33,731 bases of DNA. Source: a virus. A program made the translations under genes and the position numbers. The stretch is taken from positions 1 to 33,731 of IMG/VR virus record IMGVR_UViG_3300013132_000136. One strand, written 5' to 3'. Shown here piece by piece: positions 11,412 to 28,271 of this stretch; the stretch's first letter is position 1; each line of letters starts with the position of its first letter. The notes under the pieces were generated by a model. The model did not search any database. It saw nothing but the letters and a program-made list of their open reading frames with translations, and was not told the origin of the DNA.

Positions 11412-12741
11412 AGTTATATTTTTAGTACAAGATATAGTAAATGAAATGCCAATTTTGTTACTCGAATCGATGGCACCTGATTCATTTAAGTATGCAAGAT
11501 CTAAAAGATTTGAGATTACCTGGTACGAAGAAATATTGATAACACTAGGTATAAACAATAAGTTTATAAAATTTGAAACTATAGATTATTTTAGAAAAAA
11601 TTTTACAAAAGATTCCTTGAACGATAATAAAGTTTATTATTTTACTAATACAATACATAGCCATAAAAGTTTTAACATTTATAATTTGTTGTACTTAGGA
11701 GATGATAATTTAAAATTTCTTATAGAAAACGAAATTCCGGTAGTAATCGATAACTCATTCGAACAAAGTGATTTACATAACTTATATGTACAACTTGAAA
11801 ATGCAAATCAAAAATACCTTTTCAATCTTGATAAATTACATCTTATTTTTGTACATGGAACGTACTTTAATAATATAGGAGAAATGAACAAAAAATTTTC
11901 TAATCTAAGATTTAAACGTATAGAAAATGTATTCTATACAGCTAGTTTGTTTTTTTCAATAAACAATCAAAAAGATAAGATTAAAGAAAGATCGAAAATT
12001 ATTGAGGAAACAATTAATTCGAGACAAATTACCGATGCTAGTAAAGACTTTTTTACAAGAAGTCTAAAGCCTCGTCTTAATCGAACCCTTTTTTTTGCAA
12101 AACTCTTTGATTCAGGTCTAGATAATAATTGCATCTATACTATGATAAGAAAAGGAAAAAAATATTATTTAGATGATCTACAGTTTCTAGGTATAATTAA
12201 TAAAAAAGAATTAAATTTAATAACTGATAATCTTATCCTAGATAAGCTAGATGATGTTAAAACAATAGATTACTTCGACTTATCAGAAGGATTGAGTAAC
12301 TGCGGTAACGTTGACCTTTGTGCTACTTATGACAATTTAGATTTTTGTTACTACATAACATTAGAAACATTCCGATGCCAAAGTGTAAACGAATTCTATT
12401 CTACAAATACTATGATAACTGAAAAAAGCTTTTCGCCTTTATTTAACGGATTCCCTTCTTTTAACATAGGAGGGCAGCATTCTAGAAAAATATTTGACTT
12501 TATAGGATTAGAACGATTTCCAGAGTTTCCGACTTCTAGCCATCCATGTATATCTGAGGAAATTGAAGAAGCTATAAAATTTATAAAATATTTTTCAAAA
12601 TTATCAATAAAAGAAAAAAACGACAGGTACAATAACTGGAAAGATATTGCTTTAAAGAACTTTTTTAAATTTATAGAATTGGACCCTGCAGAAATGTATA
12701 TAAAATGTCTAAATAAGGAATACACTGATTATTTGAAATAA
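11404..12741 (+). CDS. Glycosyltransferase-like protein, paralog B, probable AUU start
   Basis: 445 residues if begun at ATT 11404; the first ATG is at 11446. The bases before that ATG read, in frame, SKVIFLVQDIVNE. With ATT read as Met this lines up without a gap with paralog A (MKQTIFLVED against MSKVIFLVQD). GAGG at 11391-11394 stands nine bases before the ATT, a correct ribosome-binding spacing; nothing similar precedes 11446. Shared blocks with A: SLKPRLNRTLFFAKLF (about 215-230), TEKSFSPLFNGFPSFNIGG (about 339-357), IGLERF, and DPAEMYIKCLNKEY at the end. The gene then overlaps the upstream stop by eight bases. AUU starts are rare and usually limit output (as in infC). The 3' end overlaps the convergent SGNH gene by 13 bases. 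Confidence 0.65.
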   Translation: MSKVIFLVQDIVNEMPILLLESMAPDSFKYARSKRFEITWYEEILITLGINNKFIKFETIDYFRKNFTKDSLNDNKVYYFTNTIHSHKSFNIYNLLYLGDDNLKFLIENEIPVVIDNSFEQSDLHNLYVQLENANQKYLFNLDKLHLIFVHGTYFNNIGEMNKKFSNLRFKRIENVFYTASLFFSINNQKDKIKERSKIIEETINSRQITDASKDFFTRSLKPRLNRTLFFAKLFDSGLDNNCIYTMIRKGKKYYLDDLQFLGIINKKELNLITDNLILDKLDDVKTIDYFDLSEGLSNCGNVDLCATYDNLDFCYYITLETFRCQSVNEFYSTNTMITEKSFSPLFNGFPSFNIGGQHSRKIFDFIGLERFPEFPTSSHPCISEEIEEAIKFIKYFSKLSIKEKNDRYNNWKDIALKNFFKFIELDPAEMYIKCLNKEYTDYLK

Positions 12742-13478
12742 TGACTATTATTTTTAATAATATCAGCAATTATTTTATGACTTGCTGGAGTAAAGTGTCC
12801 ACCGATACATCTAGATAATCTCGATAAACTTAAAGCAGGCAATATAATTAAGTTTTTAATTTTAGATTTAGATAAATTTACCATCCATAAAAAATACTTA
12901 CTTAAAGTTTCGAATCGATTAGATAATTCACCATTAATATCTATCACATAATAATTTATAGACTTTTCTTCAAGATAATAAGTTAATAATAAAAGTAACT
13001 GTATATCAAGAAAATCCTCTCTTACAGGATCAAAATGCTTTAGATAATTCAATCTAAACTCGTCGAATTCTGTATAATTGCGACCGTTAAACCCTAAAGG
13101 AAAACTAAAGACACTTTCATTTTCAAAATAATGAACTCGTCCTGGAGGAGGAATCTGTAAAAAAATTGCATCCTTTTTAATTGATTCATCTTCTACTAAC
13201 TTTAATATTCTATAAACGTTAGCACTAAGACTAGCTCCACACTCAGCATAGTTAAAAGATTCGTTAAAATCATCATTTAAAAACGATGGGTATGCATATT
13301 TTTTACAAACTTCTCGGTACTCAAATAAATCTACTTCTTTTTTCTCAAATGACTTATTTTTTTTATTTTGATACTCTATTGGATCTTTGCATTCTGCTGC
13401 CCAAGGAAAATATATACTATCGGCAGCTTCATCCCCGGCTGTAAAACTACAGCCAAAAAAATGATTATATTTTTTCAT
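12729..13478 (-). CDS. SGNH/GDSL hydrolase-like protein 1
   Basis: 249 residues from the ATG at 13478, which has GGAG nine bases before it; the open frame extends to 13589 but there only repeats, out of frame, the end of the radical-SAM gene. The N-terminus F-F-G-C-S-F-T-A-G-D gives the nucleophile block (S11 of the SGNH type). An N/G block (NYAECGASLSANVYRIL) follows, then FLQIPPPGRVHYF. The C-terminal GGHFTPASH (about 226-234) gives the catalytic histidine. SGNH proteins act as esterases, O-acetyl transferases or deacetylases on glycans and lipids. It is the last gene of a five-gene minus operon and overlaps the upstream radical-SAM gene by 14 bases. A second FGCSFT protein lies two genes upstream. 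Whether it is catalytic is not shown; the aspartate of the triad is not obvious. Confidence 0.68.
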   Translation of the reverse strand: MKKYNHFFGCSFTAGDEAADSIYFPWAAECKDPIEYQNKKNKSFEKKEVDLFEYREVCKKYAYPSFLNDDFNESFNYAECGASLSANVYRILKLVEDESIKKDAIFLQIPPPGRVHYFENESVFSFPLGFNGRNYTEFDEFRLNYLKHFDPVREDFLDIQLLLLLTYYLEEKSINYYVIDINGELSNRFETLSKYFLWMVNLSKSKIKNLIILPALSLSRLSRCIGGHFTPASHKIIADIIKNNSHYFK

Positions 13479-14643
13479 ACGATTTATCTCCGGGCCACAA
13501 GGGCAGTTTAGTTCCAGGAGCTCGTTTTGGTATTTTACTATCTGCACTGCTGACACAGCTTGGGCTAGAACATACTTTAGGCCCATCAAATAATTTAAAC
13601 CCAGTCTCTATGTTCCCTATAGGAGGGTCATAACAACTATAACTCCTTTTAATACTGCCGTCTGGTTCTCTGATTATTATACCTCTATAACCACTACTAC
13701 ACTCCCAACCATTAAACCTGTTAAAATTAAAGGCATTAAATCTTTCTGCTTGATCCATATACCATATTTTATTATCTTTATCAACAAACTCTATTTGAAA
13801 ATGTTGGGGTATTTTACTATTTTCTGCTTTATATATCGGATCTGGAGTTTTAAAAAACTTTGGCTCTGGTCGGATAACTTTTTTTATCTTATTAGCTTTA
13901 TCTTCCGTGAAAGCCCTTTGAGGCATTCCGTTGTGCAAACGGTCAAGCATCTCTTTGGTATATCCTTCAACTACTCGACTTGCGGTAGGATCACTTTGAG
14001 GTTTAAGAGTAACATTAATTCCTTGATTATGGAAAAATAAGGCATTCTCAAAATCTCTCTCAAACCACTCAGGAACCATAACCATATTAATAGTAATTTG
14101 AACATCATGTTCTTGACATAATATAAGCTTGTTTGCAAAATCCTGCATTTTGTCTTTGGTATTAACATGTTCGGTATGTAAGCTGGCAGTAATACTAGCT
14201 CTATGAAATTTACTAACAGCAGAGCAATATTTTTCCTCAAACCATTTCATCGGCCGGCTCATATTGCTTGTCATATGAACACTGGTATAATTAGTGTTTA
14301 TAACATCATTATTTAAGTATTCTAATATATCAATATATCCTGGGTGAAAAGTAGGCTCACCTCCACTTAAGCTAAAATGAAAACTATTGAAATTTCTCTC
14401 TCTTGCTTGTCGTTTTATCTCATCTATAGTTTTTAAACACAACTCTATAGGTCTATGATCCTTAGTATCACTCCGAGCATATGGCCAGCAATAACTACAT
14501 CGATAATTGCAGTATCTTCCAAGTAACCAACTAACTGAAAACAAGTCTTTATATAACATTGTCCTTTGCCCAACACGAACTAAATCCTGATAAGGAATTT
14601 TAGTAAAATCGTAAGCACTCCAACTTAGATCATCAGTGCTCAT
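13465..14643 (-). CDS. Radical-SAM protein with C-terminal Cys block (core first)
   Basis: 392 residues. The radical-SAM cluster motif is C45-x3-C49-x2-C52 (GRYCNYRCSYCWPY), with S-G-G-E-P-T at 93-98. The strand residues HMTSNMSRP and ITASLHTEHV fit later strands of the TIM-like barrel. The C-terminal region has WECSSGYRGIIIREPDGSIKRSYSC, then GNIETGFKLFDGPKVCSSPSC, i.e. a C...G.....DG.....C...G......C...C pattern of the SPASM/twitch kind that holds one auxiliary iron-sulfur cluster. Substrate unknown. It sits between an SDR-like gene (upstream, ATGA overlap) and an SGNH gene (downstream, 14-base overlap), so all three are translated from one message. Nothing seems missing from the core. Confidence 0.85.
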   Translation of the reverse strand: MSTDDLSWSAYDFTKIPYQDLVRVGQRTMLYKDLFSVSWLLGRYCNYRCSYCWPYARSDTKDHRPIELCLKTIDEIKRQARERNFNSFHFSLSGGEPTFHPGYIDILEYLNNDVINTNYTSVHMTSNMSRPMKWFEEKYCSAVSKFHRASITASLHTEHVNTKDKMQDFANKLILCQEHDVQITINMVMVPEWFERDFENALFFHNQGINVTLKPQSDPTASRVVEGYTKEMLDRLHNGMPQRAFTEDKANKIKKVIRPEPKFFKTPDPIYKAENSKIPQHFQIEFVDKDNKIWYMDQAERFNAFNFNRFNGWECSSGYRGIIIREPDGSIKRSYSCYDPPIGNIETGFKLFDGPKVCSSPSCVSSADSKIPKRAPGTKLPLWPGDKSYEKI

Positions 14644-15209
14644 GACTTAAACAAATTATTATTTTGTAAAGGATCAATGCTAATTTCATTAATACAAATA
14701 TCTTCTGGTTGCTCAATCAACCATTTTATATAACTTGCAGCTCTAGTGATGTCTAAGCATATTCTATCAGGATGCTTAAACTTCATATTACTCAATGTTC
14801 CTAAACTAATTAAAGTTATCTTAGGTCCCCCTTGCCAAACACCATTTATACCAAGAGTATTACAATAATCTCGTAATGCTTTTTTTTCTGCATTATATAA
14901 CCAAGCACCACCTTTCTTAACCCTATCTGTTGTAGATCCAATACATATTATGTAAGGTGATGTATAATTTTCTGTACATTTTTTATACACTTTGTCTAGC
15001 AATACTGTCTGACTAAATTTATTTAAGGCACTACAATTTATAAAAATATCATAGTCTAATACTAGCTCGGCAAGTTTAAGTTGTCCATTATTTGTACTTA
15101 AATCGTAGCCTGTTGTTCTGCTAGCAAAAAACGCATCTGGATATAATTGAGCCAACTCGTAGGCTAGTCCATAACTACTGTTACCTGCTATTAAAATCTT
15201 TTTTTTCAT
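14640..15209 (-). CDS. Short-chain dehydrogenase/reductase-like protein
   Basis: 189 residues, short for an SDR (usually about 250). The N-terminal nucleotide-binding loop is KILIAGNSSYGLAYEL, a variant of G-x-x-x-G-x-G with the last glycine replaced. The acidic dinucleotide position reads GYDLS. The N-N-A-G equivalent is NCSAL (58-62), the catalytic serine is S92 in CIGSTTD, and Y105-x-x-x-K109 is intact. The C-terminal substrate-binding loop is trimmed. SDRs reduce or oxidise hydroxyl/keto groups, or epimerise and dehydrate sugars. With its ATGA links to a radical-SAM gene (downstream) and an SGNH gene (upstream), it probably works on the same molecule. The altered glycine motif and short length leave open a non-catalytic or specialised role. 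Confidence 0.75.
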   Translation of the reverse strand: MKKKILIAGNSSYGLAYELAQLYPDAFFASRTTGYDLSTNNGQLKLAELVLDYDIFINCSALNKFSQTVLLDKVYKKCTENYTSPYIICIGSTTDRVKKGGAWLYNAEKKALRDYCNTLGINGVWQGGPKITLISLGTLSNMKFKHPDRICLDITRAASYIKWLIEQPEDICINEISIDPLQNNNLFKS

Positions 15210-15946
15210 AATCTTTGTGAATTTTTAGAATTCTTCCATGAATAATCATAAGGAGGAGCTAAGTTAATTTTGTTAATACCTTTTACCCAATCTGTTACCT
15301 TTTCTGTAACCTTATACTCTGGTAATACTTTTTGCAAATACATTAAATGTTCTAACGGGGAAGGATGCACATCTTTACGATCCGAAACTTTTTTTTGCCA
15401 GTCATATTCAAAAATAACCTCTTCATAACTTGGTTTAATTTTACTTAAAACCGTTGAGTAATGTGCAAGTACATCAGCTACTTCATCTTTCTTTTTGTCA
15501 TAAATTTCATAATTATAATATCTTTCGAATGGTTGACGATAATCAATCATACTTAGATAAAAATACTTACAAGATAAATTCTTTAAAATAAGATCTATAG
15601 CTGTCATTGCTGCTAGATCTCTAATGTAACATCCACGCACTGTCACATATTTTTCAACAAAATCCTTAGAATACGAATTAGTATCAAAAATATTCCCTAC
15701 CGTTAACCAATCATCAATATAACGATCTTCTCGTGTAACTCCTGTAAAACATATTCCTATAGTATCATTTTCTTGGAAATTATATTTTTCATGAGCCTCT
15801 ATAAAGGAATTTAAAATATACATATTTCCAGCGCCCGATCTACCATAATTGTAGAATGTAGAAAATTCTTTACCTAATATATCTGCCCAAGTAGGCCAAT
15901 AGTAATTGGTGAAGCTGCAACCAAATGCAAAAAACCTATCATTCAT
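15206..15946 (-). CDS. SGNH/GDSL hydrolase-like protein 2
   Basis: 246 residues. N-terminus F-F-A-F-G-C-S-F-T-N-Y-Y with S11 as the expected nucleophile; the next block is NYGRSGAGNMYIL, the third is IGICFTGVTRED, and the last is D192-V-H194-P-S-P-L-E-H, which matches the D-x-(x)-H block of SGNH enzymes better than the other paralog does. There is no signal peptide, so it acts in the cytoplasm or in the virion. The starts and stops overlap its neighbours by ATGA on both sides: a radical-SAM gene upstream and the SDR-like gene downstream. Possible reactions are O-deacetylation or O-acylation of a sugar, but no substrate can be read from the sequence. Confidence 0.72.
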   Translation of the reverse strand: MNDRFFAFGCSFTNYYWPTWADILGKEFSTFYNYGRSGAGNMYILNSFIEAHEKYNFQENDTIGICFTGVTREDRYIDDWLTVGNIFDTNSYSKDFVEKYVTVRGCYIRDLAAMTAIDLILKNLSCKYFYLSMIDYRQPFERYYNYEIYDKKKDEVADVLAHYSTVLSKIKPSYEEVIFEYDWQKKVSDRKDVHPSPLEHLMYLQKVLPEYKVTEKVTDWVKGINKINLAPPYDYSWKNSKNSQRL

Positions 15947-17148
15947 AATTTTCCAACTGTTTTTCCAAACTCAACGATGCTCGAATCTTTTTTGTAATTA
16001 GACTCTATTTCTAAAAATTTAATTATGTTAGACTTATAGTCAGAGTTGTAATTTGAACCTAATCTGCGTTGCATAAGTTTTAAAAAATTAATGAATCTTT
16101 GATAATGATGAATCTTGGTTATATCTAATTCATCAGTCAAAATACTTATCGATTCTGTAAGATAGCACTGATAATCTAGGCTTAAATTACAAATATCTAA
16201 CTCTGAAGGAATAGAAATCATATTACCATGCCAGGAAAAAGATTTAATTAAAGAATCATTCAAAAAATTAACAATGAAACGAATATATTCAGGCAAATGT
16301 GGCAAACTTAAAGCATTTATTGTTGGAGCTAACACTATACCGACAACATTAGGGCAATTTGCATAAAATTTTAAATTATCACAAAAATTATTCCAATCCA
16401 ACCCATATCTTACAAGTTTAGAATAATCTTCCGTCCCTTCATTACTTATTCCTATACGCCATTTTAACTTGTCATTGACATACATTATGTCACGCAATCT
16501 ATTTCTTGTTGCTTCATTTGAATTACCATTCGTACATATTTCTAATGTTATTATCTTTGAAGAATAATCTGTAGAAATTTTATTAAAATAATCAACTAAG
16601 TTAAAAAATTGTTTACTTAAAGTAGGTTCACCGCCCAAAAAATTAATTGTTACTTGTTTAGGATTTTCTGGATTTTTTAAAAATTGCTCGCACCATTCTT
16701 TAAAAATATCAATATCTTTGTCATTCGCTTTATCCTTGATAATCTTTCCTCTCTGCTGAGCAATCTTGCTACTTGAGTAAGGTGTGCAATATAAACAGCT
16801 AAGATCACAGGTATTATCAAACTTAATTTCAATATATTTTATAAATTTTTCAGTATTCAACTCAATTGTGTTAGAGTCAACAAATTCTTTTGTCCAAGTA
16901 TTAGTGGCTTTCCTATAAGAAGTATTAGTTTTTCTATAATCGTTCCAACAAAGTGTACAATCATTATGCTCAATGCCTTTCAGTAAAGCATCACGTCTTT
17001 CCAAAAGTTGTTTATTATTTGATACCCAATTTACAGTTAAATTATTGTTAAATTTTATTTTTTTAGATTTACAGCAATATTTAATTTCTTTATTTTGAAA
17101 ATCGATATTTAAATCAGTCCAACTTTTAGAACAGAATGTGTTAATCAT
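15943..17148 (-). CDS. Radical-SAM protein with N-terminal auxiliary Cys block (permuted order)
   Basis: 401 residues. The N-terminal 70 residues carry C6 (TFCSKSW), C25-C26 (IKYCCKS) and C64-x2-C67 (CTLCW), the pattern of a twitch/SPASM-like cluster domain that normally follows the core. The radical-SAM core comes after: C114-x3-C118-x2-C121 (FDNTCDLSCLYCTPYSSS) and L-G-G-E-P-T at 171-176. Later barrel strands include LEICTNGNSNEATR and WRIGISNEG. It heads the five-gene minus operon and starts at an ATG six bases after an AATAAATA late promoter-like box, without a ribosome-binding site, so its message may lack a leader. Closest in plan to the divergent neighbour at 17181. Substrate unknown; the family includes peptide-modifying enzymes. 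Confidence 0.86.
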   Translation of the reverse strand: MINTFCSKSWTDLNIDFQNKEIKYCCKSKKIKFNNNLTVNWVSNNKQLLERRDALLKGIEHNDCTLCWNDYRKTNTSYRKATNTWTKEFVDSNTIELNTEKFIKYIEIKFDNTCDLSCLYCTPYSSSKIAQQRGKIIKDKANDKDIDIFKEWCEQFLKNPENPKQVTINFLGGEPTLSKQFFNLVDYFNKISTDYSSKIITLEICTNGNSNEATRNRLRDIMYVNDKLKWRIGISNEGTEDYSKLVRYGLDWNNFCDNLKFYANCPNVVGIVLAPTINALSLPHLPEYIRFIVNFLNDSLIKSFSWHGNMISIPSELDICNLSLDYQCYLTESISILTDELDITKIHHYQRFINFLKLMQRRLGSNYNSDYKSNIIKFLEIESNYKKDSSIVEFGKTVGKL

Positions 17149-17156
17149 AGTAAATA
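17149..17156 (+). promoter_or_regulatory. Late promoter-like core (AGTAAATA, plus)
   Basis: Contains TAAATA with two mismatches in the first two positions of TATAAATA, 24 bases before the ATG at 17181. It overlaps the opposite-strand box, so the gap may act as a two-way late promoter. Weak on its own. Confidence 0.28.
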
Positions 17157-17162
17157 TTTATT
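17155..17162 (-). promoter_or_regulatory. Late promoter-like box AATAAATA (minus)
   Basis: One mismatch to TATAAATA. It ends six bases before the ATG at 17148, so a T4-type start site would fall at or next to the start codon. It shares the 32-base gap with a plus-strand TAAATA core (17151-17156). Confidence 0.4.
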
Positions 17163-17180
17163 CATCAGAATAGATACAAT

Positions 17181-18440
17181 ATGAAAAACAGTCAAACATT
17201 TTGCGTAATGCCATTTATACATCAAAATATTAAACAAGAAGGCAAAGTATCTGCCTGTTGGAGATATCCTGATAGGATCGGCGACTATAGAAACCAAACT
17301 TTAGAAGAAATATGGAATAGCGTCGAAACTCGAACGCTTAGAAAAAGTTTAACTCAGAGTGAAAGGCCAAAAGGTTGTAGAAGTTGCTGGGACTTTGAAG
17401 ATAGCAATGTAGTAAGCACTAGACAAACCTGTAATGAAACATATCAAAAAAAATATAAAATAGATATAGATAATATTATCTCTAAATTAGACGAAGATTT
17501 TTCCCTACCATACGAGCCAAAAACTATTGAAATAAGATTCGATAACACCTGCAACTTTAGATGTAGACATTGTAGTCCTACCTATAGTAGTCAATGGGAA
17601 AGTTTAGCATTTAAAAATACTGATGTTAAAACTTTTTTTATTAAACATGGTGCAGGAAGATTAGAAAAGAAACATATCAATCTACCCGAAGACAGATTTG
17701 AAGAATTTAAACGAATCATCCCGCATCTTAAAGAAGTGCTTATTGCTGGAGGGGAACCTTTGCAACAAAAAAAACACTGGGAAATGATTGAGGCTATGGA
17801 AGAATATTCCAAAAATATAACACTAAGCTATAATAGTAATTTATCTAGTCTTGGTATATCTAAATACTCTGTGCTTGACTATTGGCCTAAATTTCAAAAA
17901 ATAATTTTAAGAGTAAGTATTGACGGAGACGAAGACACATTTAGCTATTTTAGAACTAATGGTATTTTAAATATAGTAAAGTCAAATATTGAAAAACTAC
18001 ATTGTTTAAATAACTTAGAGATGAGTGTTACAACTACCGTGAGCATTTATAATATCTCTAGACTGCCAAGCATTGTAAAGTATATCAACTCCTGTGGTGG
18101 ATTTTTTCATACTAGTATAGTTCAATACCCAAAACCAATAAACCCTAAAGTTTTACCGAAAGTAATTAAAGATAAAATTACTTTAGAATGGGAACAGTTT
18201 AAACTTACATTAAATGAAGATTCTTTATGGTCTCATAAAAAATGGGAAGATCAAAATAATAAAATGATCCAGCTTAAACGTATTAAGCAGTATGGAGACT
18301 ACGCTGTAAATTATATGAATGCAGAGGACTATTCTGACTCACTCCCTGAAACTGAAGAATATGTCCTGTTTATGGATAATTTAAATAATACCTCATTTAA
18401 AGAAATTTATCCTGAATTAGCTGGTATTTTTAAAAAATGA
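17181..18440 (+). CDS. Radical-SAM protein with N-terminal twitch-like domain (permuted order)
   Basis: 419 residues. Residues 1-70 form the clearest permuted auxiliary domain here: C8 in TFCVMPF, G21-K-V-S-A-C26, GDYRNQTLEEIWNS, R-x-L-R, and C66-x2-C69 (KGCRSCW), which reads exactly like the end of a standard SPASM/twitch enzyme moved to the front. The core follows at C124-x3-C128-x2-C131 (FDNTCNFRCRHCSPTYSSQW), then A-G-G-E-P at 189-193 and the strands SYNSNLSS and RVSIDGDEDTF. It is a lone plus-strand gene between two minus operons; its end overlaps the 669-residue convergent gene by 34 bases. The SxxSQW-type motif after the cysteines is shared with the genes at 15943, 18407, 22298 and 23721. 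Substrate unknown. Confidence 0.88.
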   Translation: MKNSQTFCVMPFIHQNIKQEGKVSACWRYPDRIGDYRNQTLEEIWNSVETRTLRKSLTQSERPKGCRSCWDFEDSNVVSTRQTCNETYQKKYKIDIDNIISKLDEDFSLPYEPKTIEIRFDNTCNFRCRHCSPTYSSQWESLAFKNTDVKTFFIKHGAGRLEKKHINLPEDRFEEFKRIIPHLKEVLIAGGEPLQQKKHWEMIEAMEEYSKNITLSYNSNLSSLGISKYSVLDYWPKFQKIILRVSIDGDEDTFSYFRTNGILNIVKSNIEKLHCLNNLEMSVTTTVSIYNISRLPSIVKYINSCGGFFHTSIVQYPKPINPKVLPKVIKDKITLEWEQFKLTLNEDSLWSHKKWEDQNNKMIQLKRIKQYGDYAVNYMNAEDYSDSLPETEEYVLFMDNLNNTSFKEIYPELAGIFKK

Positions 18441-20416: not shown

Positions 20417-20425
20417 AAAATTAAC

Positions 20426-21484
20426 TCATTTTAAAATTGATTGTTTAACTAATTTATCTGTATAGTATAAAGTATGATTTTCTGCACTTCCGCAAGTATG
20501 TAAGCAGGTAATTAAGTTGCCTTGTTCAACTGTATCATTCCATTTATCACTAATTCTATACATTTTATCTAATACACTTTCAACAGAATACAGTGCCAAA
20601 TTAAACTCACTAATATTATAATTTTGGTTAAAGTTCCATGAGCCAGGACTATCGTGTGTATGAGTACCTAAATAACAGCAGGGCACTAGCATTCCATTAG
20701 CGCCCAGATAAATTTCTTTTCGTTCTAGACTCTTACAGGTTATTTTATTTTGATTTAATTTTGTATAATTCTTAATATCAAACTTAAAATTAACAATAGG
20801 AATATGTTCTTCTATACCAATATTAGAATGCCTATATTGTTCTTGCTCCGGCGGTTCTAGTGTAAAAATCTGCTGACCTTTTAGCATAACTTTGAAATTT
20901 TTACGGCCTCTAAACTTTTGTGTGACTTTAAGTCTAAACTTAACGCCTAATTCTTCCGATAGTCTTTTGGCTGTTTCGACCTGATGTTCATTATGCTTAA
21001 AAACTATAAAGTTCCATTGGGCCTTTCCTCCTGCACTAACATATGCTTGTAAATTAGCATAGGCTTTATCATAACTAACTCCGATTCTATATTTAGACAA
21101 TATTTCATTATCGGTACCATCTAAAGCAAAATTAATTAACACTCCGGGAATAGCCAATCTTTTCCACCAATCTTGGCTACGATAACCTCCATTAGTATCT
21201 ATACTTACACCTTTACATCCGTTACTTATTAAAAAATTAACAAACTCTGGCAATGAACTATGTAAACAAGGATCTCCATAAACTCCACTAAAATAAACGT
21301 GATCTAGTTGTTTAACAAAATCGTTAGTGAATAATTTATAAAACAATTCTGGTTTTAAATTTTCTTCTAAAAGATCAGGCTGCACATATCCATTAGCAGT
21401 ATATCTACTACACATAGGACAATGACTATTACATCTACTACTAGCTTCTACGTGAACAATTTTTATATCATTAATTGCTATCAT
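20426..21484 (-). CDS. Radical-SAM/SPASM protein with G-V-Y-G-D-P in place of GGEP
   Basis: 352 residues from the ATG at 21484, chosen because it overlaps the upstream TGA (ATGA) and gives an N-terminus equal in spacing to the paralog at 27085 (both have C18-x3-C22-x2-C25). The core reads VEASSRCNSHCPMCSRY; the usual GGEP is replaced by SGVYGDP. Barrel strands SIDTNGGYRS and LINFALDGTDN follow, then FIVFKHNEHQVETAKRLS, shared with the paralogs. The C-terminal SPASM block has CKSLERKEIYLGANGMLVPCCYLG, then CLHTC near the end. SPASM enzymes often modify peptides or sugars. The gene is coupled to the 2OG oxygenase gene upstream, so the two may act in series. Confidence 0.86.
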   Translation of the reverse strand: MIAINDIKIVHVEASSRCNSHCPMCSRYTANGYVQPDLLEENLKPELFYKLFTNDFVKQLDHVYFSGVYGDPCLHSSLPEFVNFLISNGCKGVSIDTNGGYRSQDWWKRLAIPGVLINFALDGTDNEILSKYRIGVSYDKAYANLQAYVSAGGKAQWNFIVFKHNEHQVETAKRLSEELGVKFRLKVTQKFRGRKNFKVMLKGQQIFTLEPPEQEQYRHSNIGIEEHIPIVNFKFDIKNYTKLNQNKITCKSLERKEIYLGANGMLVPCCYLGTHTHDSPGSWNFNQNYNISEFNLALYSVESVLDKMYRISDKWNDTVEQGNLITCLHTCGSAENHTLYYTDKLVKQSILK

Positions 21485-22308
21485 TTTAAAATTGTAGTCA
21501 TCATACTTAAACCACACTTCATAGTAACTTGATTCTTTTGAAAATTAATTCCTGTATGGGCCTGACATCGATCAAAAACAATTATCCCGCCTCTCTTCCA
21601 ATTATAAATCCCTTCTAACTCAAACCCGTCTAACCACTCTCTTTTAAAATGTGAAAAATACTTGAAGTAGGTCTCGTCATCAATAGTTTTTTTATTCCAA
21701 TCCACATTCCATATTGTGCCGTCTCTATGATAGCAGGTCATTTCATTATAATTACTTACTGTATAAAAGACATTAGTTTCATAAGTAGGACTACCTTTAG
21801 CAAAATTTGTACCGTACATTAAAAAACGGTTTTTAAAAATAGCAGTACCACACATAGGAGATTCTGTTAGTCTGTTTGTATGACATACCCATAATGGAAT
21901 AATAAACTGTTTTCCTGGAATGCTATTAGTATTTTTAAGAGTATTAGGATTGCCAGTATCGATATGTAGATTATAAGGAGTAGCAGTTATTAGAAAATTT
22001 CCTTCCCATAATGTATCATTAGTAAGCTCAGGAATTATACTCTTAAGCTTATCAAAAAACTTATCTTGAATTCTTTTATTATCTACATTAAAGTGTAATG
22101 TACCATTTTTTTTGACACGTCGAGTCTTATGTTCTCTATGCATTAAATCTTCAAGCCATACTAATTCTTCTTCAGTAAAAACATTATCTAGAGCATAGCT
22201 AGAATCACTCCAAGTTTTCATCCAATCTGAATAATCTTCTTTATTAACAGGAATAAATTCTTTAACTAAATTATCTCCAGGAACATATTCCAGGTTTCTA
22301 TATTCCAT
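21481..22308 (-). CDS. 2-oxoglutarate/Fe(II)-dependent oxygenase-like protein
   Basis: 275 residues. The H-x-D pair is H115-I-D117 in TPYNLHIDTGN, and the distal histidine is H251 in VFDRCQAHTGINF, with K264 or a nearby basic residue as a possible 2OG anchor. The long insert between (residues 140-245) contains a Trp/Tyr-rich stretch. The layout resembles phytanoyl-CoA or JBP-type phage oxygenases rather than the shorter prolyl-hydroxylase-like enzyme at 8700. It lies inside the radical-SAM operon: 11-base overlap with the upstream radical-SAM gene and ATGA with the one downstream, so an oxidative step is built into the pathway. Likely substrates are a small molecule, sugar or peptide side chain. 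A nucleic-acid substrate is possible but unsupported. Confidence 0.75.
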   Translation of the reverse strand: MEYRNLEYVPGDNLVKEFIPVNKEDYSDWMKTWSDSSYALDNVFTEEELVWLEDLMHREHKTRRVKKNGTLHFNVDNKRIQDKFFDKLKSIIPELTNDTLWEGNFLITATPYNLHIDTGNPNTLKNTNSIPGKQFIIPLWVCHTNRLTESPMCGTAIFKNRFLMYGTNFAKGSPTYETNVFYTVSNYNEMTCYHRDGTIWNVDWNKKTIDDETYFKYFSHFKREWLDGFELEGIYNWKRGGIIVFDRCQAHTGINFQKNQVTMKCGLSMMTTILK

Positions 22309-23698
22309 TAAAAATATCCTTCATCTCTGGAAAAGTTTTATAAAAGCTTAATCCTCTATGATCATCTAATTTTTCTAAATACTCTTTCATTTCCGGAAGC
22401 CTGACACTCCAATCATCGCTTTCCATAAACTTCAACATACCTTCAAGTCTATCTAAACCGTACCCGGCTTTAATCCAACGTTCCTTAGTTATTTTTCCTT
22501 TATGCCAACTAGGTACACCAAGTTCCCAATTTTCTTGCCACCAAGGATAAAATTCTTCATATTTTCTACGACATTCTTCTTTAAACCATTTAGGTAATAC
22601 TTTAACATTAAGATGCGGTGGATGATAAACAAAATGATAATTTATTCCACCGGCTCCAAAAGGAAACATATTCACCTTTTTAAAACCTTGAGTCAATTTC
22701 CAACGTAAAAAATCTGGAAGATAAAAGACATTTAAAGCTTGAACAGCGCAGGCGATTGTTACTTCTACATTGTCTGTAGTTTTTTGATCCAATATATGAA
22801 ATACTTCTTCAGTCCTTTCCCATTTACTAGGATACCTTATATATTCATTCATTCCGCCTATGCTATCAACACTATAATGAAATCTCACAATTTTAAAATG
22901 CTTCCATAAATCAAATAAATCATCTCTCCATTCTACACCGTTACTATTATAACGAATTTCTAGTTTTGAAGCGTGACCTTGTCTTATAACTTCTTCTAAG
23001 ATTGCATAGTGCTCTTCTATTATTAAACTCTCGCCTCCTGCAAAATAAAGCTGTTGCATATGGGGAATTTGATCGTAAAATTGCTGCCAGAACACAGGAT
23101 TATTTTTATGCCAATTATAACTGCTACCATTTATACTTCCTTTATTATTCCATTGCCAAGTTTCTTTTAAACTTTTATTTTCAAGCTTTGGATATACAGT
23201 TTGCCAATCTTTTATCCATCCCGAGCTATCGTGAGGACTACACATAACACAGGCAAGCTGGCATTTAGTTCCAAATCTTAAATCAATATAAGTTAACTTA
23301 GGAGGTATACTTCCATCGGCAGCAGTGTTTTCGATAAGCTGGTTAACATCAACCCTTTCACTCCAATACTTTGTTTCCCACTGTCTTTTACTGTTATGCC
23401 CAGCTCTTTCTTCTATATAGCATTTTCTACAACTAGGAGGTTCTTCACCGTTAATCATCTGCAATCTAACATTCTTCATATAAGTGCTATTCCAGCTACT
23501 TAAAAAATCAGAAACATTAAGATTATTTGGACGACCGTCTTCATCCTTTAAAACTCCGATCATTCCGCCATGACTCTTATCATTAGTTGGACCAACACTA
23601 CTAGCATTAGCAGTACAACAAACTCGCATACTCCCATCGGGTCTTGTACTTAAATGCACCCAAGGTAAAATGCAAAAAGTTTTAGATAAATTACTCAT
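22298..23698 (-). CDS. Radical-SAM protein with N-terminal twitch-like domain (permuted order)
   Basis: 466 residues. Auxiliary block: C9 in TFCILPWVHLSTRPDG, C27-C28 (MRVCCTA), C90-x2-C93 (PSCRKCYIEE). Core: C146-x3-C150-x2-C153 (RFGTKCQLACVMCSPHDSSGW) and A-G-G-E-S-L at 220-225, with serine in place of the usual proline. Further segments YNSNGVEWR and FHYSVDSIGGMNEYIRYPSKW follow the barrel order. It is a close relative of the next gene upstream (23721): both have the same block spacing, the E-E-R/L...NS-[KR]-R-Q-[WY]-E motif and a long Trp-rich insert before GGE. AAAGGA lies upstream of the ATG. It overlaps the oxygenase gene by 11 bases. Confidence 0.87.
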   Translation of the reverse strand: MSNLSKTFCILPWVHLSTRPDGSMRVCCTANASSVGPTNDKSHGGMIGVLKDEDGRPNNLNVSDFLSSWNSTYMKNVRLQMINGEEPPSCRKCYIEERAGHNSKRQWETKYWSERVDVNQLIENTAADGSIPPKLTYIDLRFGTKCQLACVMCSPHDSSGWIKDWQTVYPKLENKSLKETWQWNNKGSINGSSYNWHKNNPVFWQQFYDQIPHMQQLYFAGGESLIIEEHYAILEEVIRQGHASKLEIRYNSNGVEWRDDLFDLWKHFKIVRFHYSVDSIGGMNEYIRYPSKWERTEEVFHILDQKTTDNVEVTIACAVQALNVFYLPDFLRWKLTQGFKKVNMFPFGAGGINYHFVYHPPHLNVKVLPKWFKEECRRKYEEFYPWWQENWELGVPSWHKGKITKERWIKAGYGLDRLEGMLKFMESDDWSVRLPEMKEYLEKLDDHRGLSFYKTFPEMKDIFNGI

Positions 23699-23720
23699 GT
23701 TGTTCTTGTAATCCTTTTAA

Positions 23721-25037
23721 TTATAGAAATAAATTTTTATATATAGGTGCAATATTTAATATATCTTGCTTTCGAGACTTATCTAAAAATTTCGTAAATT
23801 TAATAAACTCTGGAAGCTTGTCTGAATAATCGGCAGATTCTGCATACTTACTAATACTATTTAAAATACTAACAGCATTCTCGTAAATAGCAGGAGTATA
23901 CTTTTCTTTAATTGTATCTAAATACTGGTCATAATATAAACGTAATTCTTGCTTGATCTCTTTAGGCAAAATTCTTATGTTCATACGTTTTGGACCGTGC
24001 GCTACATGATGTGTTATGATTGGTCTTCTCACTGTAGAATTAATCTTTTTAAACCCACTCTTGTCTAATTTCCAAGATATAAACTCAGGTATGTGCCATA
24101 CATTATATGCTGTGACTGTACAAGCTAACCAAGCAACTATATTAGGGCTTCTTTCGGCATAACTATCTAATTTTAACAAATTTTTGTATGCCTGCTCCCA
24201 TTTAATAGGCCATCGTTGATACTCTATAACATCTCCAACACCATCTATACTAGCTCCAACCCGGACTTGTTTAAAATTAGTCCACATATCTAAAACTCGA
24301 TTAGGCAAATTACTTAAATTAGTGTTGTATTCCAAAATTATTTTATTTGAAGCTTTAGCGTCTATACATTTTTGCAAAAACTCATAATGTCTTTCGATCA
24401 TCATCGGCTCGCCACCTGCCATATAAACGTGCTCTATATTAGGAATATTAACCTCAATTTGTTTCCAAAATTTTTCACTGCCGTGCCAATCATAATCGTT
24501 AGTAAAAAGTCTTCCTTTTTCATTACGTTCTAAAGTCACTGTACCGTGTGTATCCTTGTAAGAATTACCACCGTGATAATTAGTCCATTGTTCATACCAG
24601 GTATGACTGTCAGTTGGCCCACACATTCTACAAGCTAAATTACATAAATTTCCAAATCTTAAATCATAATATTTCAAGTTATTATCAAAAACAGTGCCGT
24701 CATCTTTAGTAATTTTAACTGCATCACTAATTGTAAATTTCCAATTTTCTAGCTCATATTGTCTACGACTATTTAAACTAGACAATTCTTCCTGTTGACA
24801 TCTTCCACATTCGTTGCTCCATTTTCCTTGTAACATATTCAATCTTACTTCTTTCATTAGACTCGCGTTTCGTGCTTCAGTCATATCATCAGTAGATGCA
24901 TTATATGGAGTGCCGTCATCTTTACGCACCACTCCTTGATTCTCAGTTACATTTGCTTGACAACAAACTCTTATATCGCCGTTATTACGGACAGCTTGGA
25001 AAATCCAAGGAATTGGACAAAATGTTGAATTATTCAT
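23721..25037 (-). CDS. Radical-SAM protein with N-terminal twitch-like domain (permuted order)
   Basis: 438 residues from the ATG at 25037; the ATG at 25055 would add six residues. I prefer 25037 because MNNSTFCPIPW matches the paralog's short lead, though neither start has a good ribosome-binding site. Auxiliary block: C7 (TFCPIPW), C25-C26 (IRVCCQA), C77-x2-C80 (ECGRCQQEELSS). Core: C132-x3-C136-x2-C139 (RFGNLCNLACRMCGPTDSHTW) and M-A-G-G-E-P at 206-211. Later: EYNTNLSNLPNR and VGASIDGVGDVIEYQRWPIKW. It overlaps the upstream SPASM gene by eight bases and is followed after 22 bases by its paralog. The pair looks like an old tandem duplication whose members may act on different positions of one substrate. 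Confidence 0.86.
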   Translation of the reverse strand: MNNSTFCPIPWIFQAVRNNGDIRVCCQANVTENQGVVRKDDGTPYNASTDDMTEARNASLMKEVRLNMLQGKWSNECGRCQQEELSSLNSRRQYELENWKFTISDAVKITKDDGTVFDNNLKYYDLRFGNLCNLACRMCGPTDSHTWYEQWTNYHGGNSYKDTHGTVTLERNEKGRLFTNDYDWHGSEKFWKQIEVNIPNIEHVYMAGGEPMMIERHYEFLQKCIDAKASNKIILEYNTNLSNLPNRVLDMWTNFKQVRVGASIDGVGDVIEYQRWPIKWEQAYKNLLKLDSYAERSPNIVAWLACTVTAYNVWHIPEFISWKLDKSGFKKINSTVRRPIITHHVAHGPKRMNIRILPKEIKQELRLYYDQYLDTIKEKYTPAIYENAVSILNSISKYAESADYSDKLPEFIKFTKFLDKSRKQDILNIAPIYKNLFL

Positions 25038-26097
25038 TGATATAAATTTTAGCATTACCGATCGGTTTAACTCCTAGTGTGGACACACTACAGGTTTCGG
25101 TACATCTGTAAATACGGTCAGTTAACCCTGACCCGTGATTCTTACTACTCCAGCTTTTAACTAAATCATTTTTATAAAACCTATGATTTAAAATGTTTGA
25201 AATTGAATTCTTATTACAATCATTCCACCCGGGCCCATACAAATTTAAAATACGCTCGTCTACAAGATGTCTTTTCGACTTATTAATGAATCGTGCATTA
25301 TGTAAAAAACAACAAGGCCAAAGAAGCCCATCATGTCCTAAAAAAAACATACTAGACTTTTGATTATTACATTCTATTTTATCTTCAATTTTAAGATTAG
25401 CATTGTCTATAAAATGAAAATCAAAAACATTATCTATAGTATTTTGATTAATGTCTTTAACAAATTTAATTTCTTCAAATGTTTTATCGTTTAATGTTCT
25501 GTCATGTCTTAAATGAAATTCCTTAAAACCCATTTTTTTACTGATTTGTTTAGCTTCATCAGACTGATGCTTGTTCCAAGAAAAACTTATGAATTGCCAA
25601 ATAGCATAACCATTAGCCTTTATAAACGAATTTGCATTTTCAATTATTTTACTATAGCTAGTTTTTTGTCTATAAAGATGATTAGTATCTTCAAGACCAT
25701 CAATAGAAAAATAAAAAAAATGCTGTTTAAATTTATTTAAAACGTTGGCCAATTCTGAAAAATATTCACCATTACGAATACTAGCATTAGAATGTATACG
25801 AATAATTAAATCGGGATTAATCTCCGATGCTAATTTTAAAACTTTTAAAAAATCAGGATGCATTAAAGGATCATCAATAGTACCACAAAACTCAATTTCA
25901 AGCAACCCTTTATCATTAAAACCTTCAATTACTTTAGTCCAGGTTTCTAAACTTAAAATATCTTTTTTAGGAATTAAACTCCTAACATTATTGTAATTTT
26001 CTAAGTTTGTTCTTACACAACCTAAACATAAAGCATTACACATACTCGAAAGCTCGACTTGTAATTTTTTAGGTGTAGGTACATATACATTACTCAT
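25030..26097 (-). CDS. Radical-SAM/SPASM protein with C-G-T-I-D-D-P in place of GGEP
   Basis: 355 residues from the ATG at 26097; a TTG two codons upstream is also in frame. Core: C20-x3-C24-x2-C27 (ELSSMCNALCLGCVRTN); the GGEP position reads FCGTIDDPLMHP. The strand YFSIDGLEDTNHLYRQKT is almost the same as in the gene at 27085 (FSLDGLEDTNHLYRQNT). The C-terminal block is IECNNQKSSMFFLGHDGLLWPCCFLH, ending with RCTETCSVST. The gene heads the 26097-to-18407 operon and has a TAAATA core six bases before its ATG, with no ribosome-binding site, which hints at a leaderless message. Among the three SPASM paralogs it is the most diverged at the GDP motif. Substrate unknown. Confidence 0.84.
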   Translation of the reverse strand: MSNVYVPTPKKLQVELSSMCNALCLGCVRTNLENYNNVRSLIPKKDILSLETWTKVIEGFNDKGLLEIEFCGTIDDPLMHPDFLKVLKLASEINPDLIIRIHSNASIRNGEYFSELANVLNKFKQHFFYFSIDGLEDTNHLYRQKTSYSKIIENANSFIKANGYAIWQFISFSWNKHQSDEAKQISKKMGFKEFHLRHDRTLNDKTFEEIKFVKDINQNTIDNVFDFHFIDNANLKIEDKIECNNQKSSMFFLGHDGLLWPCCFLHNARFINKSKRHLVDERILNLYGPGWNDCNKNSISNILNHRFYKNDLVKSWSSKNHGSGLTDRIYRCTETCSVSTLGVKPIGNAKIYINE

Positions 26098-26103
26098 AGA
26101 CAA

Positions 26104-26111
26104 TATTTAAC
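26104..26111 (-). promoter_or_regulatory. Late promoter-like core GTTAAATA (minus)
   Basis: Keeps TAAATA but differs from TATAAATA in its first two bases. It ends six bases before the ATG at 26097. Position is like that of the boxes before 17148 and 28248. Weak alone; the repeated placement is what makes it worth listing. Confidence 0.33.
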
Positions 26112-26126
26112 CTTGAAACAATAGGT

Positions 26127-26134
26127 TATAAATA
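26127..26134 (+). promoter_or_regulatory. T4-type late promoter (TATAAATA) four bases before an ATG
   Basis: Exact TATAAATA. With the T4 spacing the start site would be about 26140, inside the ATG at 26139, so the message would be leaderless or the box drives a different start. The box is half of a 13-base AT palindrome (26128-26140). Confidence 0.5.
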
Positions 26135-26138
26135 ATTT

Positions 26139-27092
26139 ATGACTTTTCCAATCAAAATTTACAGAAAAACAAATTATTTTTCGATCGACTGGACAATTAA
26201 CACTTTATGCACTTATCATTGTAGTTACTGTCCTGATATGCTTCATCGCGGGCGAAATATTATATTTGATAAAAATAAAGACAAGCTTATTATTAAACAA
26301 TTTCTAGAAAAGCTTTACAACCAAATAAAAGGTAGACCTACACACGTTTTTTTAAATGGCGGTGAGCCAACTATAAGTCCATATTTTATATATCTGATCG
26401 ACATATTTAAGGACTACGGCTGGTATTGCCACGTTAATACTAATTGTACACGAACCACAGAATGGTGGATTCAAAATGCTCCAAAATTATTCAAAGCAAC
26501 AATAAGCTTTCATCCTGAATGGGATAATCCTAATATATTTGAAAAAGTAAAAACTATCAGTGAACTTACAAATGTAGGAGTGTTTGTTTTAATGTACCCG
26601 CCTTATTGGGAAAAGGCAAAACAAGCATTTTACAATTTTGTTGACATTCCCACTGTAGCTCACGTAGGTATAAGTAGAGTTTTTAAAAGAAAAGATATTA
26701 AGAACGATACTAGCTACGATTATTCAGAAGATCAATTAGAATGGTTTAAAAATAATTCGGGAATTAAAAGACCGTACTTATTTGATATTCCAAAAGAAGA
26801 AGCATTTGGACACGTAATTATAGAAAACGCAGACGGAAGTTCAACTCCTGCTAATGAAAAAATTCTAGTGAATAATAGACAAAATACATTTATTAACTGG
26901 AATTGTAATATGGCTATAGATCACATCCATATAAACGGAGAAGGTCTTATAAAAGGAGCAGCTTGCAATCAAGGTAAAGATTTAGGCACACTGGAAACTT
27001 TCGAATCTTTAAACACTGCTCCTACACATTGTAAACAAATATGGTGTAACTGTACAATTGATACTTTAATCCCAAAGTACAAAATTATTTAA
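26139..27092 (+). CDS. Radical-SAM protein, compact (core first)
   Basis: 317 residues, the shortest of the set. Core: C24-x3-C28-x2-C31 (INTLCTYHCSYCPDM), N-G-G-E-P-T at 73-78, then HVNTNCTRTTEWW and ATISFHPEWD. The C-terminal part has WNCNMAIDHIHINGEGLIKGAACNQG, DLGTLE, and CKQIWCNC, a reduced twitch-like block (C...G.....C......C....C). In plan it is closest to the gene at 13465 (C-x-Y-x-C-S-Y-C, GGEPT, C-terminal block). It is a lone plus-strand gene with an exact TATAAATA four bases before the ATG, and its end overlaps the convergent gene at 27085 by eight bases. No ribosome-binding site is seen. Substrate unknown. Confidence 0.85.
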   Translation: MTFPIKIYRKTNYFSIDWTINTLCTYHCSYCPDMLHRGRNIIFDKNKDKLIIKQFLEKLYNQIKGRPTHVFLNGGEPTISPYFIYLIDIFKDYGWYCHVNTNCTRTTEWWIQNAPKLFKATISFHPEWDNPNIFEKVKTISELTNVGVFVLMYPPYWEKAKQAFYNFVDIPTVAHVGISRVFKRKDIKNDTSYDYSEDQLEWFKNNSGIKRPYLFDIPKEEAFGHVIIENADGSSTPANEKILVNNRQNTFINWNCNMAIDHIHINGEGLIKGAACNQGKDLGTLETFESLNTAPTHCKQIWCNCTIDTLIPKYKII

Positions 27093-28248
27093 ACTGTTCA
27101 GCAAAAGCGTCATATTTCGATCCGCAAGTTTTAGAACAAACTGCTAGCTTACCTTCTGCACAGCTAGGCTTATTCCAACTTTCAGGAATCAGAGTTTGAA
27201 AAAACAAACCATCAACAATATCCCTTAAAGATGTTGTAATTGCGTTAAGATTATCTTTACCTACTTGATCGATAAGGTTCCATATTTGTGTAGTTTTAGG
27301 TGTATGATACCAAACATACATTTGCCCGGCTGTCCAACAACAAGGTTGAACTATACCTTCTGCACTAATATACAAACTTTTTTCTTCTGCTACCTTACAT
27401 TTAATAATAGCTTCATCCCAAACCTTTTCTATAGGCTTTTTCTTAGCGATATCTTTAGTAAAAAATTGCGGATAAGTTTCAATATCTTTCGCTTTACTAG
27501 GAATAAATTTTACTGGTTCGTCACCTTTAGCAAACTTGCTTATTTCATCTAATACACTATTACGATATTTTATATTAGTAGGAGCTTGTAATAATGCTGT
27601 GGCTACGCCTTTACGGTTTCCAGCCTGATGCATCTCTTTAGTAACTCCACTAACATTACTAAAAAACCTTGCTGATTTTTTATACTGAAAACGTTCAAAA
27701 CCCATAGTTGTGGCCAAGGATTCAGCTTGCTCTACCTGATGCTCATTATGAGCAAATACAATATAATCCCAACGAGCACGACCTCCAGCATCAATAAATG
27801 CTTGAGCATTACTCATAATTTTTGACCAAACTGTATTTTGTCTATATAAATGATTAGTATCTTCAAGCCCGTCGAGACTGAATACCACATACCCTTTACG
27901 ACCAATAGTCTGAGCCAACTCCGCCCACCATTCGGGCCTCTTCGCTGACCCATTAGTATGCATACTCAGCATCATCTTAGGATTATGCTCTCTAAAATAG
28001 GCAAATGTTTCTAGCGTATCTCGAGCAGCAATAGGATCTCCGTAGTTTCCGCACATATACATTCTTTCTAATTGTGCAATAAACTCAGGCTTGAAGATTT
28101 GTTTGATATCATTAATGGATAATTCTGTCCCAGGTAGTTGAGGGTTATCTTCTCCTCCGTTAATATTACGAGCACACATTGGACAGGCTGCATTACAAGC
28201 ATCTGTCATTTCTAGATGTATTGTTTTTATTTCATTATATCTATACAT
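27085..28248 (-). CDS. Radical-SAM/SPASM protein with C-G-N-Y-G-D-P in place of GGEP
   Basis: 387 residues from the ATG at 28248. The open frame goes on to 28380 and would add a hydrophobic stretch, but that lies antisense to the methyltransferase at 28295 and is not credible. Core: C18-x3-C22-x2-C25 (MTDACNAACPMCARN), then MYMCGNYGDPIAA for GGEP; strand FSLDGLEDTNHLYRQNT; then WDYIVFAHNEHQVEQAESLA, shared with 20426. C-terminal SPASM block: KCKVAEEKSLYISAEGIVQPCCWTAGQMY, with CSKTCGSKYD at the end. The composition is slightly richer in G+C than its neighbours, which suggests it entered the island separately. Upstream is TTTAAATA four bases before the ATG. A single-gene minus unit between two plus genes. 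Confidence 0.87.
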   Translation of the reverse strand: MYRYNEIKTIHLEMTDACNAACPMCARNINGGEDNPQLPGTELSINDIKQIFKPEFIAQLERMYMCGNYGDPIAARDTLETFAYFREHNPKMMLSMHTNGSAKRPEWWAELAQTIGRKGYVVFSLDGLEDTNHLYRQNTVWSKIMSNAQAFIDAGGRARWDYIVFAHNEHQVEQAESLATTMGFERFQYKKSARFFSNVSGVTKEMHQAGNRKGVATALLQAPTNIKYRNSVLDEISKFAKGDEPVKFIPSKAKDIETYPQFFTKDIAKKKPIEKVWDEAIIKCKVAEEKSLYISAEGIVQPCCWTAGQMYVWYHTPKTTQIWNLIDQVGKDNLNAITTSLRDIVDGLFFQTLIPESWNKPSCAEGKLAVCSKTCGSKYDAFAEQFK

Positions 28249-28252
28249 AATG

Positions 28253-28260
28253 TATTTAAA
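28253..28260 (-). promoter_or_regulatory. Late promoter-like box TTTAAATA (minus)
   Basis: One mismatch to TATAAATA, ending four bases before the ATG at 28248. The same close placement is seen before 26139, so transcripts may begin at the start codon. Confidence 0.38.
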
Positions 28261-28263
28261 TAA

Positions 28264-28271
28264 AATAAATA
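28264..28271 (+). promoter_or_regulatory. Late promoter-like box AATAAATA (plus)
   Basis: One mismatch to TATAAATA, 23 bases before the ATG at 28295, with a purine run (GATAAAAAAGAA) between that may serve as a weak ribosome-binding site. A normal late-gene arrangement. Confidence 0.45.

Follow-up and report, generated by a model that had tools for sequence, protein, structure and literature searches.

What would a virus of bacteria do with ten radical S-adenosylmethionine (rSAM) enzymes encoded nearly end to end? The question is raised by a fragment of 33.7 kb from a collection of viral sequences (IMG/VR record IMGVR_UViG_3300013132_000136; the window, here, is this whole stretch, positions 1 to 33,731), which comes from a large aquatic virus of bacteria. 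Genes of T4-like phages (MoxR, VWA, ThyX and an exonuclease) occupy one side of the window, and the other side is a dense island lying mostly on the minus strand. An earlier note on this sequence, hereafter the original prediction, had listed ten rSAM genes between 13465 and 28248 and proposed that they form an assembly-line pathway for a complex sugar, lipid or peptide. When related loci are compared, the array is a conserved core of enzymes (named A, B and C, often with D or E) accompanied by a set that differs between phages. We read the island as an rSAM-driven glycan-tailoring locus inside the tail-fiber/host-recognition region of T4-like aquatic phages, and give this reading a probability of roughly 0.52.

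Ten rSAM enzymes of three types

Each of the ten open reading frames (ORFs) is present where it had been listed, with an intact CX3CX2C motif and a match to PF04055 (E-values 5e-15 to 1e-5); when the residues of the window's 34 proteins are shuffled, 0.065 CX3CX2C proteins are expected on average. All ten belong to the radical SAM superfamily, which is marked by a CX3CX2C [4Fe-4S] motif within a partial TIM barrel, and the model of A agrees with this. Two of them, 18407 and 22298 (genes are named by their lower coordinate), fall slightly below the Pfam curated cut-off, yet far above that of NCBIfam NF033640 (N_Twi_rSAM). A record-wide PF04055 search gave ten matches, namely nine island genes and a cut QueE-like gene; the tenth island enzyme, 25030, was picked up when scanned as a protein and not by that search. 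The start of gene 27085 is corrected from 28380, as listed, to 28248, where M45 of the longer ORF lies. The ten genes are:

13465..14643, minus: rSAM1, core enzyme A, 392 residues; motif CNYRCSYC, C-terminal auxiliary cysteines C315/C337/C358/C363; PF04055 5e-15; 143 loci at 50% identity or more
15943..17148, minus: rSAM2, accessory, N-terminal twitch rSAM; NF033640 177.9 bits (cut-off 170); best relative 40%
17181..18440, plus: rSAM3, accessory N_Twi_rSAM; NF033640 304.7 bits; 19 loci
18407..20416, minus: rSAM4, accessory N_Twi_rSAM with an N-terminal extension of ~200 residues; NF033640 245.8 bits over residues 210-654; best relative 47%
20426..21517, minus: rSAM5, accessory, with a C-terminal SPASM/twitch-like cysteine set seen in the alignment; PF04055 1.9e-10; 20 loci
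22298..23698, minus: rSAM6, core enzyme B, N_Twi_rSAM; NF033640 419 bits; 131 loci
23721..25055, minus: rSAM7, frequent enzyme D, N_Twi_rSAM; NF033640 386 bits; 60 loci
25030..26103, minus: rSAM8, accessory; PF04055 7.2e-7; best relative 49%
26139..27092, plus: rSAM9, accessory, short A-like type; PF04055 8e-7; 6 loci
27085..28248, minus: rSAM10, core enzyme C, first rSAM of the canonical array; PF04055 7.9e-9; 103 loci

At the NF033640 cut-off of 170 bits for the whole protein, five proteins belong (15943, 17181, 18407, 22298 and 23721; 178-419 bits) and five do not (13465, 20426, 25030, 26139 and 27085; 24-51 bits). NF033640 is a sequence family without an assigned function, and its five members here have a twitch-like cysteine set at the N-terminus followed by the radical-SAM domain. 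The other five are of two further types: in 20426, 25030 and 27085 the radical-SAM domain comes first and a Cys...PCC...CxxxC set lies at the C-terminus, and 13465 and 26139 are shorter, also with C-terminal cysteine sets. GGE[PS] occurs in seven of the ten, with G-x2-[GD]DP instead in 20426, 25030 and 27085. Every one has at least four extra cysteines with auxiliary-cluster-like spacing, conserved within families; across 30 phage alignment rows of A (identity 49-87%), C315, C337, C358 and C363 are invariant. Because the motifs are intact and these further cysteine sets are conserved, all ten look like active enzymes with a predicted extra cluster, and the catalytic competence of the rSAMs is likely. 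The idea that 13465 and 26139 act as viperin-like antivirals was rejected, as their matches to NF038283 are local only and score 40.6 and 35.1 bits against a cut-off of 180.

A conserved core and a changing set

Four scans of viral contigs yielded 250 loci, in which 4904 genes were called (two cultured-phage stretches included), 1432 of them rSAM. The genes return as a block in many phages, with at least three rSAM genes in 128 of 167 loci once near-duplicates are removed, and CX3CX2C is kept in 1294 of the 1306 rSAMs of 250 residues or more. Packing is tight: among 506 adjacent rSAM pairs the median gap is -8 bp, 92% lie within 20 bp, and 465 are on the same strand. The maximum is 22 rSAM matches per contig, reached in L068 (518,643 bp) and L226 (328,149 bp).

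Grouped at a threshold of 50% identity, the rSAMs fall into 327 groups, 150 of which are singletons. The largest are A (143 loci), B (131), C (103), D (60) and E (52), the last of which is not in the window. Because A, C, D and an N-twitch alignment with B at its head served as seeds for the scans, part of the enrichment of these groups stems from seeding, but seeding does not explain the gene order and the pairing of enzymes from different seeds: on the coding strand, C mostly comes first, then B, then D or E, then A, and in the non-redundant set B and C co-occur in 56 loci and A and B in 41. In 49 loci, a gtA/MT-family gene precedes C on the same strand. Core members have best identities of 74-91% and from tens to more than 100 relatives at 50% identity or above, compared with best identities of 40-74% and 0-18 such relatives for the accessory members of the window. 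Given this difference and the fixed order, the array is conserved at its ends and variable between them.

Position beside tail fibers and glycosyltransferases

Loci that reach far enough show what precedes C. Their order is a tail-fiber-like gene, TAIL16, F15, two GT8 genes, a member of the 32318 family, two gtA genes plus another gene of their cluster, and C; F15 followed by GT8-GT8 is found in 31 of 31 loci. In a 231-kb phage (L314), the array is preceded, in this order, by a baseplate wedge, a giant virion protein, a tail-fiber-like gene, TAIL16, F15, GT8 and GT8; the first three of these lie in a region beyond the window. The far side of the array often abuts the ThyX-MoxR genes of the opposite strand. 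In the window, this part of the island comprises:

29123..30742, minus: repeat protein whose C-terminal domain is conserved, closing the trio that precedes C; family fam2 via relatives of 308-323 residues
30735..31412, minus: gtA-type glycosyltransferase-like protein, which aligns with 31405
31405..32337, minus: gtA glycosyltransferase-like protein, predicted GT-A fold by structure match, DxD (D66, D68)
32318..32869, minus: conserved protein between GT8 and gtA; family fam19, 32 loci
32859..33686, minus: GT8-like protein (the GT8 name is from sequence look only), adjoining tail-fiber genes in relatives; family fam5, 98 members

The AlphaFold2 (AF2) model of gtA has a pLDDT of 91.5, and its best structural match is 6p61, a glycosyltransferase (VIA Z 10.4 over 135 residues); its top structural rows are mostly glycosyltransferases or related nucleotide-sugar folds. 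D66xD68 is invariant in the alignment, and gtA, combining the modeled fold with DxD as GT-A enzymes do, is a putative glycosyltransferase. The GT8-like protein matches phrog_1903, of unknown function, at 1.7e-4. Neighbors elsewhere are of sugar or tailoring kinds. In a 233-kb phage, three nucleoside-diphosphate (NDP)-sugar epimerase/dehydratases, a carbamoyltransferase, a transketolase domain, a methyltransferase and a GDSL protein lie beside the gtA genes, and other arrays hold a UDP-glucose/GDP-mannose dehydrogenase, carbamoyltransferases, an arginine-deiminase/amidinotransferase-fold protein and hydroxylases.

A counterpart in Bdellovibrionota

When A was scanned against ~85,000 bacterial and archaeal species, it was found in 25 loci, mostly of Bdellovibrionota, at 54-65% identity. 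MAG contigs L261, L262, L274, L279 and L280, labeled Rickettsiales, Gammaproteobacteria, Chloroflexi and Acidimicrobiaceae, look like misbinned phage contigs and were excluded from the bacterial count. Chromosomes of some of these predatory bacteria hold the core A, B and C with gtA; bacterial A is usually accompanied by all three, and two such genomes were followed on contigs as long as 2 Mb. Of 241 Bdellovibrionota genomes, 16 have A and 15 have gtA, with 13 having both (Fisher p ~5e-17, not corrected for phylogeny), and the 14 genomes with B all have A as well. Their gtA may sit 49 kb from A or on another contig and, because it is often so far away, simple linkage does not explain the co-occurrence. 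Bacterial neighbors include family-2 glycosyltransferases (GT2), a PMT_2-type gene and amine-oxidase-type flavoproteins, one of which gives a weak UDP-galactopyranose-mutase match.

One Bdellovibrionales contig (L273:6891-19713) brings bacterial and phage arrangements together: ribosomal-protein and phenylalanyl-tRNA synthetase genes are followed by B, gtA, A, TAIL16, F15, GT8, GT8, gtA and more rSAMs. No other phage genes were seen on it, and the contig ends there, so misassembly is possible. In trees of A and B, whose rooting is uncertain, the main phage group is a single shallow cluster beside or inside more diverse Bdellovibrionota, and a few long-branch phage rows stand apart. A divergent phage group (L163-L180) has long-branched A and B and a different gene order.

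What the island may make

Since the block recurs, the catalytic cysteines are kept and the neighbors are of sugar and tailoring kinds, a multi-step pathway is likely, and a sugar or glycan is its most likely product; a lipid is the least supported. Neither of the outcomes that the original prediction had named as fatal to the pathway idea, singly scattered homologs or loss of the catalytic residues in most of the enzymes, was seen. This much of it holds, but its ordered assembly line is not supported, and the array does not represent a single fixed pathway. The neighboring genes suggest a glycan as substrate. The GT8-like and gtA glycosyltransferases would assemble a sugar chain on an acceptor that is either a phage fiber protein or part of the host surface, and A, B and C, usually with D or E, would make identical C-H-activation changes to sugars in every phage, for which epimerization, dehydrogenation, deoxygenation or C-C bond formation are candidate chemistries. 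Accessory rSAMs, together with the PP-loop, short-chain dehydrogenase/reductase (SDR), 2-oxoglutarate (2OG)-like and GDSL-like proteins and the carbamoyl/amidino transferases, would be exchanged between phages and vary the final structure, much as in O-antigen loci, and the benefit would be receptor or immunity variation. O-antigen and capsule loci have conserved ends, a variable middle, glycosyltransferases and tailoring enzymes. The island shares that layout and differs in being dominated by rSAMs and in that a polymerase or flippase was not recognized.

Several points weigh against a glycan-tailoring role. We infer the product and the acceptor, as we do the chemistry and the benefit. The structure matches of gtA span its first ~160 residues only, with TM-scores of ~0.3, and the peptide S-glycosyltransferase SunS is among them. 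In the model of A, the closest folds are BlsE, EpeE and SkfB; BlsE, a sugar-nucleoside enzyme, is best (Z 16.8), but the peptide-acting EpeE, SkfB and SuiB are nearly as close (Z 15-16), a difference that the tool itself counts as a tie. The one solved sequence match of B is SkfB. The phylogenetic profiling of A and gtA takes no account of relatedness, and a glycosyltransferase, NodU or NDP-DH gene is seen in only 86 of 128 loci, partly since the loci are cut.

These structural ties bear on the main alternative, which we consider unlikely: the rSAMs might modify side chains of a phage fiber such as TAIL14 or TAIL16 (by epimerization, thioether or C-C crosslinks), with that protein also being decorated by the glycosyltransferases, in a chemistry like that of ribosomally synthesized and post-translationally modified peptides (RiPPs) acting on a large structural protein. 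The auxiliary-cluster cysteine sets of all ten enzymes would fit it, as would the peptide epimerase EpeE and the maturases SkfB and SuiB among the folds nearest A, the solved sequence nearest to B (SkfB, 8e-5), the fiber genes directly upstream of the array and the one Bdellovibrionota chromosome with TAIL16-F15-GT8-GT8-gtA as well as A and B. SPASM/twitch RiPP maturases resemble the array in fold and in auxiliary-cluster-like cysteines but differ from it, as no precursor peptide is present here and half of the enzymes are twitch-like at the N-terminus. The array leaves no ORF-sized space for a precursor: every gap from 12729 to 28912 is shorter than 90 bp, and a RiPP with a locally encoded precursor was thus rejected and a classical precursor-peptide system is disfavored. 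Beyond that stretch lies one 74-residue ORF:

28902..29126, minus: small ORF, 74 residues, a possible small protein, in the island's only gap of more than 90 bp

NDP-sugar genes adjoin the arrays, which also speaks against fiber modification, and TAIL16 is present in 1 of the 241 Bdellovibrionota genomes, compared with 16 for A, so it was rejected as an obligate substrate. The alternative keeps some probability because peptide-acting rSAMs tie in fold and the solved relative of B by sequence is SkfB.

A small diffusible molecule, such as a nucleoside, amino-sugar or guanidino/carbamoyl natural product directed at competitors or host defense, is a good deal less probable. The BlsE-like fold of A would suit it, as would the amidinotransferase-like and carbamoyltransferase genes of some arrays and the 2OG-like, SDR and PP-loop genes, but an export or resistance gene was not recognized in the arrays, and the tail-fiber location and the constant partnership with gtA point elsewhere. 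A loose set of unrelated auxiliary genes that broadly help metabolism when oxygen is low, an idea put forward for Campylobacter phage CP220, would account for the high accessory turnover (150 of 327 rSAM groups being singletons); it was already disfavored and is very improbable, as core and order are fixed, overlaps are tight and the genes are co-inherited with gtA. DNA or tRNA base modification, which the QueE-family gene of the same phage and a PP-loop family with SGGxDS and four conserved cysteines might suggest, is the least credible, as the QueE-like gene lies ~12 kb off on the other strand past the ThyX/MoxR block, its relatives lack the standard cysteine motif, and the bacterial core sits with glycosyltransferases.

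Relation to known systems

The original prediction had also put the island forward as the window's best candidate for an undescribed system. Phages with many rSAMs have been reported since 2010, when 11 and 12 rSAM genes were described in Campylobacter phages CP220 and CPt10 (PMC2853527). These are T4-like as well, with a swappable five-gene module and nearby amidinotransferase and nucleotide-sugar-transferase-like genes (PMC2853527), but CP220 has fewer rSAMs per cluster. Full-length orthologues of core A or B were not found in CP220, which gave only partial, superfamily-level matches, and gtA gave no match there, an empty answer that alone shows little. With full-length A and B missing from the CP220 matches and gtA not found, identity with the system of the Campylobacter phages was rejected. 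Searches of cultured phages by tblastn returned only weak relatives, of B (in Vibrio phage K566) and of 20426 (in CP220, F379 and a pelagiphage), and none for TAIL16 and gtA; K566 has an rSAM cluster, in which core A and B are not present as full-length orthologues. A T4-like marine genome with 12 rSAM genes (TARA_ERS488813_N000010) was reported in 2017 (PMC5332604). It resembles the present case in having many rSAMs in one aquatic T4-like phage, a comparison made by description only, and the paper frames them as Fe-S metabolism without gene analysis (PMC5332604).

The region also resembles the host recognition cluster (HRC) of pelagimyophages, an island beside VrlC and the tail fibers in which rSAM cassettes were noticed earlier (PMC7029224). 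Both look like hypervariable islands by the tail fibers of T4-like marine phages, with GT8 glycosyltransferases and rSAM cassettes; in the HRC paper the rSAMs are handled as cassettes (PMC7029224), whereas here they form a core-plus-variable array that some bacteria share. Among the open-access papers covered by the search, no description was found of the core-plus-variable architecture, the fixed GT8/gtA place or the Bdellovibrionota counterpart, nor any account of the system among papers on rSAM with Bdellovibrio or huge phages. Multi-rSAM phages as such are thus not wholly new.

Tentatively, the arrays could be an undescribed biosynthetic class that T4-like phages of aquatic habitats have in common with some Bdellovibrionota. 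Three fixed rSAMs and a dedicated glycosyltransferase would make a scaffold, and further rSAMs, combinatorial and rapidly exchanged, would diversify it, yielding variable glycans altered by radical chemistry, or glycosylated fibers, for host recognition or evasion. If so, phages would hold a remarkably dense rSAM collection, up to 22 per contig, with core and exchangeable parts, and its chromosomal counterpart would lie in bacteria that may be amenable to gene deletion. The question, open since 2010, of why some phages hold so many rSAM genes would become directly testable, and hundreds of diverged enzymes in a shared context would be a source for new radical chemistry.

Other genes of the window

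Interspersed with the array, or flanking it, are genes to which the original prediction had given a variety of names:

2-667, plus: QueE-family gene, truncated by the contig start
9337-10065, plus: compact DegT-type aminotransferase, 242 residues; L195 and L205 have orthologues about as long
12729..13478, minus: SGNH-like protein at the distal end, by motif only
14640..15209, minus: SDR-like reductase, 189 residues; S92-Y105-K109 invariant; SDR profile E 1.5e-6; 61 of 128 arrays
15206..15946, minus: SGNH-like protein, with a GCSFT-type block only and without a Pfam or significant profile match
21481..22308, minus: 2-oxoglutarate oxygenase-like protein; invariant H115-x-D117 and H251, no Pfam match; 22 of 128 arrays
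28295..28912, plus: methyltransferase-like gene; PF08242 5e-4, below the cut-off

The SDR assignment is borne out by the invariant S92, Y105 and K109 and by the profile match to solved SDRs, and the DegT-like ORF, though compact, matches PF01041. The gene at the left edge is of the QueE family, as predicted, but it is cut by the contig end and its cysteine motif falls outside the window. Its relatives have CNFKCAGF where CX3CX2C is expected, so the third iron-sulfur ligand may be absent in them and QueE activity is doubtful. For the 2OG oxygenase, the HxD...H pattern is invariant but no profile match accompanies it, and for the two SGNH proteins a GDS-like block is present, again with no significant profile match, so these names stand as motif assignments. 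The start of the SGNH-like gene 12729 is probably ~13478. Profile searches against solved structures gave nothing usable for the 2OG, SGNH, F3 and TAIL16 families.

A PP-loop family, found in 38 of 128 arrays (for example, L239:4940-5812, plus strand), has SGGxDS and four conserved cysteines. It is reminiscent of QueC, without a match to it, and its match to N-type ATP pyrophosphatases spans the SGGxDS motif only. Two related proteins of ~440 residues each are encoded at 10062-11411 and 11446-12741 on the plus strand. No PHROG match was found for the first, and relatives of the pair lie on the opposite strand beside core A in some other phages.

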